Made by a program: the position numbers and the translations under genes. The notes under the pieces were generated by a model, which saw only the letters and a list, made by a program, of their open reading frames with translations, searched no databases and was not told where the DNA came from. Below, piece after piece: positions 15,683 through 22,769 of a DNA stretch of 26,175 nt (positions within the stretch are counted from its first letter, which is position 1; each line of letters opens with the position of its first letter). Origin of the DNA: a virus; the IMG/VR virus record IMGVR_UViG_3300009192_000002, positions 1 through 26,175 of that record; one strand, 5' to 3'.

Positions 15683-15754
15683 TGTCTCTTCGTCTAATTG
15701 GCAGGACACCAGCTTTTGGTGCTGGGAATTGAGGTTCGACCCCTTGAGAGACAA
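15683..15754 (+). tRNA. tRNA-Gln (anticodon TTG)
   Basis: This is a complete 72-nt cloverleaf. The acceptor is TGTCTCT/AGAGACA, the D arm GTCT/GGAC with GG in the loop. The anticodon stem is CCAGC/GCTGG with loop TTTTGGT (anticodon TTG), and the T arm has loop TTCGACC. The discriminator is A, and CCA is not encoded (CAA follows). The U1-A72 pair is typical of tRNA-Gln. It reads CAA, the common Gln codon of this AT-rich phage. Confidence 0.93.
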
Positions 15755-15764
15755 CAATTATTAT

Positions 15765-19152: not shown

Positions 19153-19341
19153 ATGAGTAGTAAAACTAAAAAGAATCCTTTTAATAAAAGGAAAACATCA
19201 GCAATTAAGGAGATTAAACCTATTAAAGGTATAAAAGAGAAGCTGAAATCTCCAAGAACAAGTTATTTAAATGACTTATTATTTAAAGAACATGAAGACA
19301 ATTTTAATAGCAACAATAATTCTATGCAGTTACAATTCTAA
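19153..19341 (+). CDS. Small basic protein (62 aa), unknown
   Basis: I take the ATG at 19153 (MSSKTKKNPFNKRKTSAIKE). A longer frame would need GTG at 19111 and would overlap the micropeptide. The N-terminal 35 residues are Lys-rich; the end is acidic and Asn-rich (KEHEDNFNSNNNSMQLQF). It overlaps the start of the RlpA-like gene by 50 nt in another frame, which is unusual here and lowers confidence in its 3' half. Confidence 0.4.
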   Translation: MSSKTKKNPFNKRKTSAIKEIKPIKGIKEKLKSPRTSYLNDLLFKEHEDNFNSNNNSMQLQF

Positions 19342-19675
19342 CATCACAAAAGTATCTTGGTATGGACCAGGATTTGATGGGAGAATAACTGCAAATGGAG
19401 AAATCTACAGTCAAGATAGCTTAACTGCTGCTTCACCTAATTTACCATTTAATACACTAGTTAAAATCACTAATCCTAGCAATAACAAATCAGTTGTTGT
19501 TAGGATAAATGATAGAGGACCTTTTAAGTGTTTTAAAAAAGATGGTAAAATTAGACCTGTAAGACCATTAGAACCTCATCCAAAGAGGAAGTTTGATTTA
19601 TCTAAGAAAGCATTTGAAACAATTGCAAGTACTAGTAAGGGAATCATTCAAGTAGAGTATAAACTTATAAAATAA
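19292..19675 (+). CDS. RlpA-like double-psi beta-barrel lipoprotein
   Basis: From ATG 19292 this 127-residue protein has a short signal peptide ending in Cys12 (MKTILIATIILCSYNSN), so it may be a lipoprotein. A DPBB domain follows with the RlpA signature: VSWYGPGFDGRITANGEIYS (about 21-40), LTAASPNLPFNT, SVVVRINDRGPF with the key Asp75, and FDLSKKAFETIA near the end. RlpA proteins are lytic transglycosylases acting on denuded peptidoglycan, or PG binders. This single-domain version lacks a SPOR domain. In the early/middle region it may alter the host wall or prevent superinfection. The in-frame ATG at 19271 would precede a less convincing signal peptide. Confidence 0.8.
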   Translation: MKTILIATIILCSYNSNITKVSWYGPGFDGRITANGEIYSQDSLTAASPNLPFNTLVKITNPSNNKSVVVRINDRGPFKCFKKDGKIRPVRPLEPHPKRKFDLSKKAFETIASTSKGIIQVEYKLIK

Positions 19676-19678
19676 AAA

Positions 19679-20062
19679 ATGAATTATTATACAGATGAAA
19701 ACATTGAGATGGTTAAGAATCATTTTAATGTAGATGATATGTTAAATAACTTAGTAAAACATGGGTTAATTGAAGAATTAACAGGGAATTATTCTGAAGA
19801 TATTACAGACATGTGTAATAATTGTACATTAATGTTAGGTAAGCATTTGCAAACTTATATATCAGCAGATAATATAATTGTAGTAGAAGGAGTGTTTAAT
19901 ATGATGGGTAATCATACATGGATAGTTATTGATGATATAATTTTTGATTTATCATTAGCTCAGTTTATCCCTGATGCACCTAAATTTTCAGTATTAAAAG
20001 AAAATAAGTATTACCATCCTATTAATAGAAGTTCTTTTAAAGAATGGTTAAAAACTATATAA
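19679..20062 (+). CDS. Hypothetical protein with a C-H-D papain-like pattern
   Basis: This 127-residue protein starts 3 nt after the RlpA-like stop. It is helical at first (DENIEMVKNHFNVDDMLNNL), then CNNCTLMLGKHLQTYI (Cys46, Cys49), then VVEGVFNMMGNHTWIVIDDI (His78, Asp84/85), then FDLSLAQF. A Cys at the start of a helix followed by a His on a strand and an Asp soon after resembles transglutaminase or papain-fold hydrolases. The spacing fits, but the assignment is by eye. There is no signal peptide, so it is cytoplasmic unless exported otherwise. It ends 8 nt before the tmRNA. Confidence 0.55.
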   Translation: MNYYTDENIEMVKNHFNVDDMLNNLVKHGLIEELTGNYSEDITDMCNNCTLMLGKHLQTYISADNIIVVEGVFNMMGNHTWIVIDDIIFDLSLAQFIPDAPKFSVLKENKYYHPINRSSFKEWLKTI

Positions 20063-20070
20063 TAAAACAT

Positions 20071-20468
20071 GGGGGTGAGTGGCATTTGATTACACTATGA
20101 ATGTGAATGGACAAGTATGTGGATTGATATTCTACACATTAAAAATTGATAATCAACAACAATAAATGGAACAAATAATAATTCTATATCAACTTTAGAG
20201 ATTTCTAATCCTAGAGTGATTGCCTTAAATGCACAGGTTGAAACAGAAGTGCAGGAAAGAGTAGCAGCATAATGTTGTTAAATTTCTAATAGTAGTAATC
20301 TACTCAGTTGTTTTTCTAATTATAAGACTGTGATGTAATAAATTAGATGGTGGACAGTTAACTGATTCAGTTGACCCTATTCTGAGAAGAATTAAAATAT
20401 CTATTAAACTTGTATAATCTGCTCATTGTGAGTAATGTAAGACCAGGGTTCGACTCCCTGCACCTCCA
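20071..20468 (+). ncRNA. ssrA: tmRNA (transfer-messenger RNA)
   Basis: This 398-nt phage-encoded tmRNA would rescue stalled ribosomes. The 5' end GGGGGTG (20071-20077) pairs with CACCTCC (20461-20467) 390 nt downstream, making a 7-bp acceptor stem with G3-U70, the alanyl-tRNA synthetase identity element. The discriminator is A (20468) and CCA is not encoded (CTA follows). The T arm is CAGGG-TTCGACT-CCCTG (20444-20460). A tag frame GCA...GTA GCA GCA TAA lies at 20231-20272. Its stop codon forms the loop of a hairpin AGCAGCA/TGTTGTT, as in the usual P5 helix. Later hairpins (AGTAG/CTACT; TCTAATT/AATTAGA; TTAACTGA/TCAGTTGA) fit the pseudoknot-rich 3' half. Confidence 0.9.
20231..20272 (+). other. 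tmRNA tag-peptide reading frame (AQVETEVQERVAA)
   Basis: GCA at 20231 is the likely resume codon, and the frame reads Ala-Gln-Val-Glu-Thr-Glu-Val-Gln-Glu-Arg-Val-Ala-Ala, then TAA. The length of 13 and the Ala-Ala end are typical of tmRNA tags; the final VAA replaces the common LAA. The resume codon is inferred and could lie upstream, because the frame stays open further 5'. Confidence 0.65.
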
Positions 20469-20510
20469 CTAAGGAGATAATTAATTAATAACAATCATAA
20501 AAATAAAAAG

Positions 20511-22613
20511 ATGATAGAACTGACAACAAAAATGCAGGAACAGTTTGCAAAAATGTGTGAAACTGGAAAACTATTCAAGTCTAAAATGACTGGAAGAGAA
20601 GTATGGGATATGTATTTAGAGTCTTTCCTTGATGGAAATGACCCTACATTTAGAGACCCTGAAAGTAGTGTACATAATTGTAATCATTGTAATAACTTCA
20701 TTAGAAGATATGGTAATGTGGTTGCAATTAATAAAGAATTAGAAGTGATGACAATATTTGATATTGATTTAGAATCAGATAGTGAATACTTAGAATCTTT
20801 CTTAAATATGGCAACAACACTAGGAAATAGTGGAGTTGAAAATATATTCTTTGAAACCTATAATGAATTAAATAGTTTACCTTATGAACAATGTTCTAAG
20901 ACAAATGAAGTATTTAGATTAGGATTTGAAAAGAATCACAAAAGATATACAGCAGCAGAAGCTGAAGCTTTTGGTACAAATGCTGTAAAAGCTAATGAAA
21001 CAAGAACTTTTAATCATTTCTATTTAGATTTGCCAAAAGAGTTTGTTCACATGGGCAATAACTCAATTGAATCAATTCAAGCTGAATTTAGAAGTGCTAA
21101 AGAAGTATTCCAAAGAGCAATGGTAGAAATACCATTAGATACATTAGACCTAGTGATTGATTTAATTAATCAAGGTTCATTGTTAGATGGAACTACTCAT
21201 TTACAAAAAGTAATCTTAATGAAGAAATTCAAAGAAGATTATGACAAAGTAATTGAGCAAGACTTATGGTGTTGGATAGCTTCTCATAAATTAGGTATAG
21301 CTAAGTTCAAAAATGAATTAATTGGGGTACTATGCTCTGAATTAGCTGAAGGGAAAGAACTTAATGAAGCTTGTAAAGCTTGGAATTACAGAGTTGACCC
21401 AGCTAATTATATGAAAGCAGTAGCACCAATTACTGAAACTCAAAAGAGAAATGCTCAAGAATTTGTAGAAACTAATGGTTATATTGAATCATTTGACAGA
21501 AAGATAGCAACTATGGATGACATTGAAGTTCATGAAATATTGCATTCTAATGTTGGAAAAGATGAAGTAAAATCTGTTTCTATATTTGACAATGTTAAGA
21601 CTGGGAAACCTTCAAGACATAAGAGAAATGAGTTCAAAGGAGTGGAAGAAGTAACAATTGACAAATTTATGTCAGATATACTACCTGCTTGTACTTCAGT
21701 TGAGGTTTACCTTGAAGGAAGACTTGAGAACAATTTAGTAACAATGACAACCTCTAAAGAAAAAGAGTGTAAGCAAATGTTTAAGTGGAATAATCCATTT
21801 TCATGGACTTTCAAAGGAAATCTTGCAGGGAAGTCAATGATTAAAGAAAATGTTTCTAAAGTAGGAGGTAATATTGATGCATTAGTTAGATGTTCTTTAC
21901 AATGGAATGATGAAGAGACTCCTGGAATAGTAGATTTTGATTTACATTCTAAAGGTATCAATCATATTTATCATGGTAATAATGGTCAAACACATTCTTG
22001 TGGAGGACAATTAGATACTGATATGATTAATCCTAGTAAAATAGGTATTGAGAATATCACTTGGAAAAAACATATCAAAGATGGTGAATATAGATTAGGT
22101 GTTAAAAACTACAATAGTAGGTCAAATGCTGGATTCAAAGTAGAAATTGAGTTTGGTACTGAGACATTTAACTACCATGTTACTGGTTCTGTTAAAGGAT
22201 ATACTGAAGTAGCAACTTTATCTGTGAAAAATGGAGAAGTATCTATTAAGCATCATTTACCTGAAACAAGTACATCAAGAGATTTGTATGCACTTAGTAC
22301 ACAAGAATTTCATAAAGTTAATCTTGTATGTTTATCTCCAAATCATTGGGGAGAAAATGAAGCAGGTAACAAACATTACTTCTTTATGTTAGATGGAGCT
22401 AAAATAGATAGTCCTATCAGAAGTTTTCATAGTGAGAACTTAGAGCCTGAATTAGCTCAACATAGAAAAGTATTAGAAGTTCTTGGAGCTGTTAATATGT
22501 TAGAACCAACAGATAAGCAATTATCTGGAGTTGGATTTAATTCTACAGTAAAAGATGAAGTAATACTAAGACTTAAAGGTAACTTCCAAAGAGTAGTTAA
22601 AGTTAAGTTTTAA
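20511..22613 (+). CDS. Large conserved phage protein with CxxC motif (700 aa)
   Basis: This 700-residue soluble protein is the largest early-block gene here. Near the N-terminus it has GREVWDMYLESFLDGNDPTF and then HNCNHCNNFIRRYGNVVAI (about 55-73), a motif I recall from a widespread phage protein family of unknown function. The helical middle (about 180-330) contains VDLINQGSLLDGTTHLQKV. The C-terminal half is beta-rich and holds FDLHSKGINHIYHGNNGQTH and ARSNAGFKVEIEFG-like segments. The C-terminus ends with FNSTVKDEVILRLKGNFQRV. It is followed by a terminator, tRNA and a small partner-like gene. Abundance of charged residues and lack of catalytic motifs leave the role open. Confidence 0.75.
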   Translation: MIELTTKMQEQFAKMCETGKLFKSKMTGREVWDMYLESFLDGNDPTFRDPESSVHNCNHCNNFIRRYGNVVAINKELEVMTIFDIDLESDSEYLESFLNMATTLGNSGVENIFFETYNELNSLPYEQCSKTNEVFRLGFEKNHKRYTAAEAEAFGTNAVKANETRTFNHFYLDLPKEFVHMGNNSIESIQAEFRSAKEVFQRAMVEIPLDTLDLVIDLINQGSLLDGTTHLQKVILMKKFKEDYDKVIEQDLWCWIASHKLGIAKFKNELIGVLCSELAEGKELNEACKAWNYRVDPANYMKAVAPITETQKRNAQEFVETNGYIESFDRKIATMDDIEVHEILHSNVGKDEVKSVSIFDNVKTGKPSRHKRNEFKGVEEVTIDKFMSDILPACTSVEVYLEGRLENNLVTMTTSKEKECKQMFKWNNPFSWTFKGNLAGKSMIKENVSKVGGNIDALVRCSLQWNDEETPGIVDFDLHSKGINHIYHGNNGQTHSCGGQLDTDMINPSKIGIENITWKKHIKDGEYRLGVKNYNSRSNAGFKVEIEFGTETFNYHVTGSVKGYTEVATLSVKNGEVSIKHHLPETSTSRDLYALSTQEFHKVNLVCLSPNHWGENEAGNKHYFFMLDGAKIDSPIRSFHSENLEPELAQHRKVLEVLGAVNMLEPTDKQLSGVGFNSTVKDEVILRLKGNFQRVVKVKF

Positions 22614-22660: not shown

Positions 22661-22734
22661 TGGGATGTAGCTCAGGTGGTTAGAGCATTGGAATCATAGT
22701 CCAAAGGTCAGAGGTTCAAGTCCTCTCTTCCCTA
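22661..22734 (+). tRNA. tRNA with CAT anticodon (Met or Ile2)
   Basis: This is a 74-nt cloverleaf. The D arm is GCTC/GAGC with TGG in the loop. The anticodon stem is TTGGA/TCCAA with loop ATCATAG (anticodon CAT at 22695-22697). The T arm is AGAGG-TTCAAGT-CCTCT. The acceptor TGGGATG/CTTCCCT has a T-T mismatch at 1-72 and another at 6-67. The anticodon stem lacks the three G-C pairs of initiator tRNA, so it is elongator Met or, after lysidine modification, Ile decoding AUA, a codon this phage uses heavily. CCA is not encoded. Confidence 0.85.
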
Positions 22735-22769
22735 CAAAGATTAATAATTAATAATAAAAAACAACAACA

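Follow-up and report, generated by a model that had tools for sequence, protein, structure and literature searches.

The window analyzed here, a stretch of 26,175 nucleotides from the virus record IMGVR_UViG_3300009192_000002, contains a complete one-piece tmRNA gene, which is encoded by a phage and carries a non-host tag. We consider it probable, at roughly 0.8, that this is a functional tmRNA gene from a crAss-like phage with a flavobacterial-type host, and that its tag of 34 amino acids belongs to a phage-specific lineage. A first-pass annotation made from the letters alone had placed a tmRNA here and named ARAGORN and the Rfam tmRNA models as checks, and both programs agree with it. ARAGORN called positions 20071–20469 as a tmRNA, and Infernal matched RF00023 end to end to positions 20071–20471 with 56.3 bits (E 8.8e-20), above the curated cut-off of 47 bits. 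The features of the gene are summarized in Table 1.

Table 1. Features of the tmRNA gene, with positions counted from the first letter of the window.
Feature	Position	Strand	Evidence
One-piece tmRNA (ssrA-like) gene	20071–20471	+	ARAGORN; Rfam RF00023 (56.3 bits, model 1–374)
P1 acceptor stem, 5′ strand GGGGGTG, G3 pairs with U70	20071–20077	+	Sequence; P1 covaries in relatives
P2 core, 5′ strand ACAAGT, pairs with 20408–20413	20111–20116	+	Sequence
UA at −5/−4 relative to the resume codon (corresponds to U85 A86 of E. coli)	20163–20164	+	Sequence; all long-tag relatives
Predicted tag frame, resume codon GGA to stop TAA, GTNNNSISTLEISNPRVIALNAQVETEVQERVAA (34 aa)	20168–20272	+	FpV4 homology, open frames, host-like position
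Alternative short tag AQVETEVQERVAA	20231–20272	+	ARAGORN; TAAAT-GCA start fits the UA rule
Helix-5-like hairpin, tag stop UAA in loop	20262–20280	+	Fold z-score −2.9
Hairpin GUUAACUG/CAGUUGAC after the tag	20357–20375	+	Fold; pattern in relatives
P2 core, 3′ strand ACTTGT	20408–20413	+	Sequence
T arm CAGGG-TTCGACT-CCCTG	20444–20460	+	Infernal; T-stem pairing in relatives
P1 3′ strand CACCTCC and discriminator A	20461–20468	+	Sequence

The ends of the RNA form an alanine-type tRNA-like domain, with the G3·U70 pair in P1, a T arm, a discriminator A and no anticodon arm. The acceptor stem had been described as perfect, and all seven pairs do form, the 3-70 pair necessarily being a G·U wobble; the T arm is likewise complete as first read. 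The discriminator A is followed by CTA, so that the CCA end is not encoded, and most host ssrA genes read likewise lack an encoded CCA. Among 13 related tmRNAs collected without the in-house pairing filter, P1 formed 90 of 91 pairs with three positions doubly changed (49–57 with a slid partner), and the T stem formed 65 of 65 with four positions doubly changed (24–45 with a slid partner). The pairing of P1 and the T stem in relatives is far above chance. The P2 core of the window comprises 6 bp by inspection, and covariation is seen in relatives with CAGC/GCTG or CATG/CATG at this place. The tag frame ends in GTA GCA GCA TAA, as noted at first pass, and its stop codon (20270–20272) lies within a hairpin of 8 bp whose 3-nt loop is exactly UAA (−8.3 kcal/mol, 3 of 200 shuffles as good); a tag stop in helix 5 is the arrangement of known tmRNAs (PMC3968760). 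Claims on the region after the tag are confined to lengths and single hairpins. The hairpin found there occupies the region of host PK2–PK4; its folding (−11.9 kcal/mol, z −1.6) is weak evidence alone, and its GGTGG...GACCC pattern was found again in relatives. PK1 was not identified upstream of the tag in the window tmRNA, which counts against our main reading; in most relatives this region holds a near-invariant CAGAGAGATAACTGT...CTAAGGTGA block.

The preceding ORF ends at position 20062, 8 nt before the tmRNA, and a 700-aa ORF starts at 20511 on its 3′ side. The 700-aa protein (20511–22613) matches PHROG 1735 and has relatives in 484 phage records, mostly phages of Salmonella, Klebsiella, and Escherichia (~32% identity). 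Records drawn by this neighbouring gene are mainly from unrelated phages, few of which have a tmRNA. Two genes upstream of the tmRNA, positions 19271–19675 encode a double-psi beta-barrel protein of the RlpA type (Pfam DPBB_1), which may act in lysis or at the cell wall, and the region is flanked by genes for tRNA-Gln(TTG) (15683–15755) and tRNA-Met(CAT) (22661–22735). A scan around the tmRNA gene gave no terminator, and promoter-like sites were an uninformative ~1 s.d. above shuffles.

The portal, TerL, and MCP of the window match PHROG 6547, 6681, and 11589, respectively. The MCP is ~24–33% identical to those of Crassvirales, and the nearest isolates by MCP are Flavobacterium psychrophilum phages of the genus Fipvunavirus (77.6%). 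The first-pass label of crAss-like is thus appropriate in a broad sense, but these nearest isolates stand outside Crassvirales at NCBI. RF00023 was searched against 50 records (46 viral contigs and four phage records, most collected by MCP and some by the 700-aa gene); 16 were over the cut-off, phage FpV4 among them, and phage profiles brought up one more tmRNA contig (G008). The window tmRNA is not found by a phage 5′-end profile, a second point against our reading. A DNA pattern encoding NAQVxANM led to many more viral contigs, in 58 of which an in-house rule gave a tmRNA whose P1 and T stem are complete. A TerL related to that of the window was present in 34 of 50 motif-bearing records, and the four examined were PHROG 6681.

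We assign to the long-tag lineage those tmRNAs with a stop-free tag of at least 30 aa and a small C-terminus; the motif NAQ[VI] is present in most of them, and the window tag has 34 aa, NAQVE and an RVAA end. Among isolates, long-tag tmRNAs are carried by 29 Flavobacterium phage records (including FpV4/Fpv1-20) and by the Cellulophaga phages phi38:1, phi40:1, and Calle (Pervagoviridae). The tmRNA of Cellulophaga phage phi14:2 (Crassvirales, Steigviridae), also called by ARAGORN, scores 46 bits, one under the cut-off. The first-pass remark that such a gene is easily missed applies to the FpV4-type phages, phi14:2 and phi38:1, whose records have no tmRNA feature, but not to Calle or to the gut phage cr106_1, in which the tmRNA is annotated. 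In phi38:1, the tmRNA is overlapped by a hypothetical protein annotated on the opposite strand (L450 1083–1256), and in Calle_1 the tmRNA feature is displaced by ~52 nt from the gene. Loss in closely related phages had been named as an observation that would speak against the gene. The gene recurs across the wider clade, but none was shown in G002, the nearest relative whose contig is almost complete (92 kb, MCP 84%), and the tmRNA is therefore not essential to the clade. The contig G001 (MCP 97%) apparently stops short of the tmRNA position. Gain or loss of the tmRNA within the clade is evident.

In E. coli, the frame of the tag is fixed by A86, 4 nt ahead of the resume codon (PMC2481249). 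UA at −5/−4 stands before two codons of the same frame in the window, GGA at 20168 (TAAAT-GGA) and GCA at 20231 (TAAAT-GCA). Judged from comparison of sequences, the tag is most likely the 34 residues of GTNNNSISTLEISNPRVIALNAQVETEVQERVAA (codons 20168–20269) and not AQVETEVQERVAA, because the relatives keep the frame open from the upstream resume codon. In all long-tag relatives the upstream site is kept at the host resume position (nt 84–99 of the gene; host mean, nt 96); the search for relatives demanded UA at this site, yet no sequence failed that demand. From here, 30–54 codons (median 35) are open in 52 distinct phage tmRNAs. All 37 distinct tag frames tested are stop-free, and each of the other two frames has stops in 37 of 37. 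The stop-free frames of 17 sequence clusters give ~4e-22 by shuffling, an over-estimated significance since most of the frames were found via an 8-codon motif. The RF00023 search, which made no use of the motif, gave 14 of the distinct long-tag sequences, and the length is therefore not an artefact of the pattern search.

The amino acids of the tag show signs of selection. Tag differences in close pairs found independently of the motif were all synonymous (4/4 in G003/G004 and 3/3 in G005/G006). Across chosen pairs, pN/pS was 0.48 downstream of the motif (p 3e-4) and a weak 0.64 upstream of it (p 0.07), the motif region itself being excluded since it is fixed by the search pattern. The first 11 tag residues are GTNNNSISTLE in the window and GNTNNSVVSLE in FpV4, a similarity reached by 16 of 20,000 shuffles. 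It is unlikely that the same tmRNA instead resumes at GCA 20231 and adds the 13-aa tag that ARAGORN calls, with the upstream open frame as a mere spacer. Such a start obeys the UA(−5,−4) rule (PMC2481249), but relatives have no UA at −5/−4 at the equivalent place (ATAAC-GCA in FpV4), so that it is not conserved as a resume site, and the codons upstream show homology and contain no stop. The first-pass annotation was thus right in giving the phage a non-host tag of its own, but the short form ending in ERVAA probably starts 21 codons too far downstream.

With the 34-aa reading preferred, the window resembles other members of the lineage in which ARAGORN tag calls can be too short. Calle and phi38:1 have the tag GNNTNAVNAQIEANMEAVNAILNLEVAVGV, read by ARAGORN as 22 aa, and the phi14:2 tag is GNDTDNTQLKANM...LAMVA by the long reading and GSSVQKLAMVA by the short one. 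Some long tags have no AA end, for example AVGV in Calle, which is a further point against our main reading. Tags of tmRNA are said to span 8 to 35 residues (PMC3968760), which places the lineage at or beyond the upper end of the known range. In 13 tags, the hydrophobic moment of an amphipathic helix was no better than in shuffles, and comparison of the tag with Pfam, PHROGs, and PDB gave no similar protein family or solved structure.

The ssrA genes of Bacteroidota and Flavobacterium are similar to the phage gene in being one-piece and ~400 nt long, with a G3·U70 acceptor, T arm and P2, a CCA that is mostly not encoded, and a GGN resume codon near nt 96, usually behind UANNN. They differ in the tag, which is of the GENNYALAA type and had 9 aa in all 24 Bacteroidota and all 30 Flavobacterium genomes checked, compared with 30–54 aa in the phages; three more host genes missed by the parsing rule also have 9-aa tags when read directly. 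The part after the tag measures 239–273 nt (mean 264) in hosts and a mean of 175 nt in phages. Because of this shorter part, the phage RNAs are not longer than those of the hosts despite the long tag (mean 376 vs. 393 nt), and the reduction fits the finding that PK2–PK4 of tmRNA are replaceable (PMC3968760).

Alignment with Bacteroidetes ssrA had also been proposed at first pass. For the tree, only the 5′ part and the final 75 nt of each tmRNA were used, the tag being excluded. It sets 25 long-tag phage tmRNAs, that of the window among them, apart from host ssrA as a separate clade (support 100/99), and the window thus groups with phages. The root and long branches of this tree limit finer claims, and the window tip branch of 0.95, that of a divergent RNA, counts against our main reading. 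Two other phage tmRNAs are placed among the hosts and look like independent acquisitions: LR756500, whose tag has 10 aa, and G045, whose tag has 54. The 54-codon frame of G045 (L174 1501–1960) ends in EEELELV, without the usual AA end. The genes of tmRNA are often integration sites, and an origin as a remnant has been proposed for other phage tmRNAs (PMC9004378, PMC11590407). That the window gene is such a captured piece of host ssrA, left for instance by a temperate phage, is nevertheless extremely improbable, since the gene is complete rather than a 3′ fragment and belongs to a phage-only lineage distinct from host ssrA. We rejected the integration-site remnant as no tyrosine integrase was found in the 31 phage records tested, many of them fragments, with a positive control.

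In the mechanism we propose, the tmRNA would be transcribed as part of the rightward-reading genes; host enzymes would process it and add the CCA tail, and host AlaRS would charge it with alanine through G3·U70. Host EF-Tu and host SmpB would then bring it to ribosomes stuck on broken mRNA; SmpB was found in none of 35 phage records, many of them fragments, and was found in the host control, the window being a 26-kb fragment in which the search covers that part of the phage alone. Translation would resume at GGA 20168, add the tag GTNNN...ERVAA and end at the UAA in the helix-5 loop. The ribosome would thereby be freed, and the small hydrophobic C-terminus would mark the peptide for degradation, to the presumed benefit of the infection. 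Of the functions suggested in the first-pass annotation, freeing of ribosomes is a fair inference, but retagging for a purpose of the phage and bypass of tmRNA-based defence are unsupported. A decoy role, in which the RNA binds SmpB or stalled ribosomes and so blocks host trans-translation, has been proposed for molecules consisting of the TLD only, such as that of mycobacteriophage DS6A; one TLD-only molecule inhibits tmRNA, perhaps by titrating SmpB (PMC4131195). For the window this is very unlikely, as the resume signal, a coding frame under purifying selection, the stop-codon hairpin and the hydrophobic tag end are all retained, and a decoy requires none of them.

A more tentative idea, which we think doubtful but worth stating, is that the long, selected tag is more than a common C-terminal degron and holds an extra signal (NAQ[VI]xANM and its neighbours), by which the phage would direct peptides to a protease, an adaptor or a fate of its own choosing. 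The tag of the Mesoplasma florum tmRNA is ~27 aa long. Mesoplasma tags are read by Lon (PMC9097571), and these Mollicute tmRNAs, from different hosts, set a precedent for recognition of the tag by a different protease; by this analogy, a change of protease would be the most interesting idea for the extra 25 residues. If true, a virus would be rewriting the protein-quality-control label of its host.

Phage tmRNAs as such are known, having been found in 402 of 18,146 phage genomes (~2%; PMC9004378), and include those of the mycobacteriophages Bxz1 and Wildcat, Bacillus phage G, Melnitz, and Calle. The Melnitz tmRNA is two-piece and riboswitch-linked (PMC9004378), unlike the one-piece RNA of the window. 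Annotations also exist for Calle and for one crAss-like phage, cr106_1 (Mahstovirus faecalis, human gut Crassvirales), where the tmRNA likewise lies beside tRNA genes but is a 304-nt gene with the 8-aa tag DNTYRVAA and no long tag; two further types of short-tag phage tmRNA have 9 and 16 aa. In compact phage tmRNAs, the tag is followed by a 43-nt element, TTTCTNTATTAGATTAAATANAGTGGTGGA (L400 7243–7285); in Lactococcus phage AM1, an element of this type, 91% identical, lies upstream of the tmRNA at a distance of ~80 nt (L451 601–642), and a similar one is present in cr106_1.

What is new, and previously unremarked, is a phage lineage with tags about four times the host length (~35 vs. 9 codons); no report of conserved ~35-aa tags was found in the part of the literature searched. 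An explanation for tmRNA genes in phages is still being sought, and the cases reported so far are mostly isolated annotations. In the present case, an entire lineage in phages of Flavobacteria-like hosts has a tag that is strongly and consistently unlike that of the host. Carriers in culture include Calle as well as FpV4, phi14:2, and phi38:1, the last three of which had stayed unannotated for tmRNA, and this makes the question directly testable; mass spectrometry could separate phage-added from host-added tags within one infected cell.
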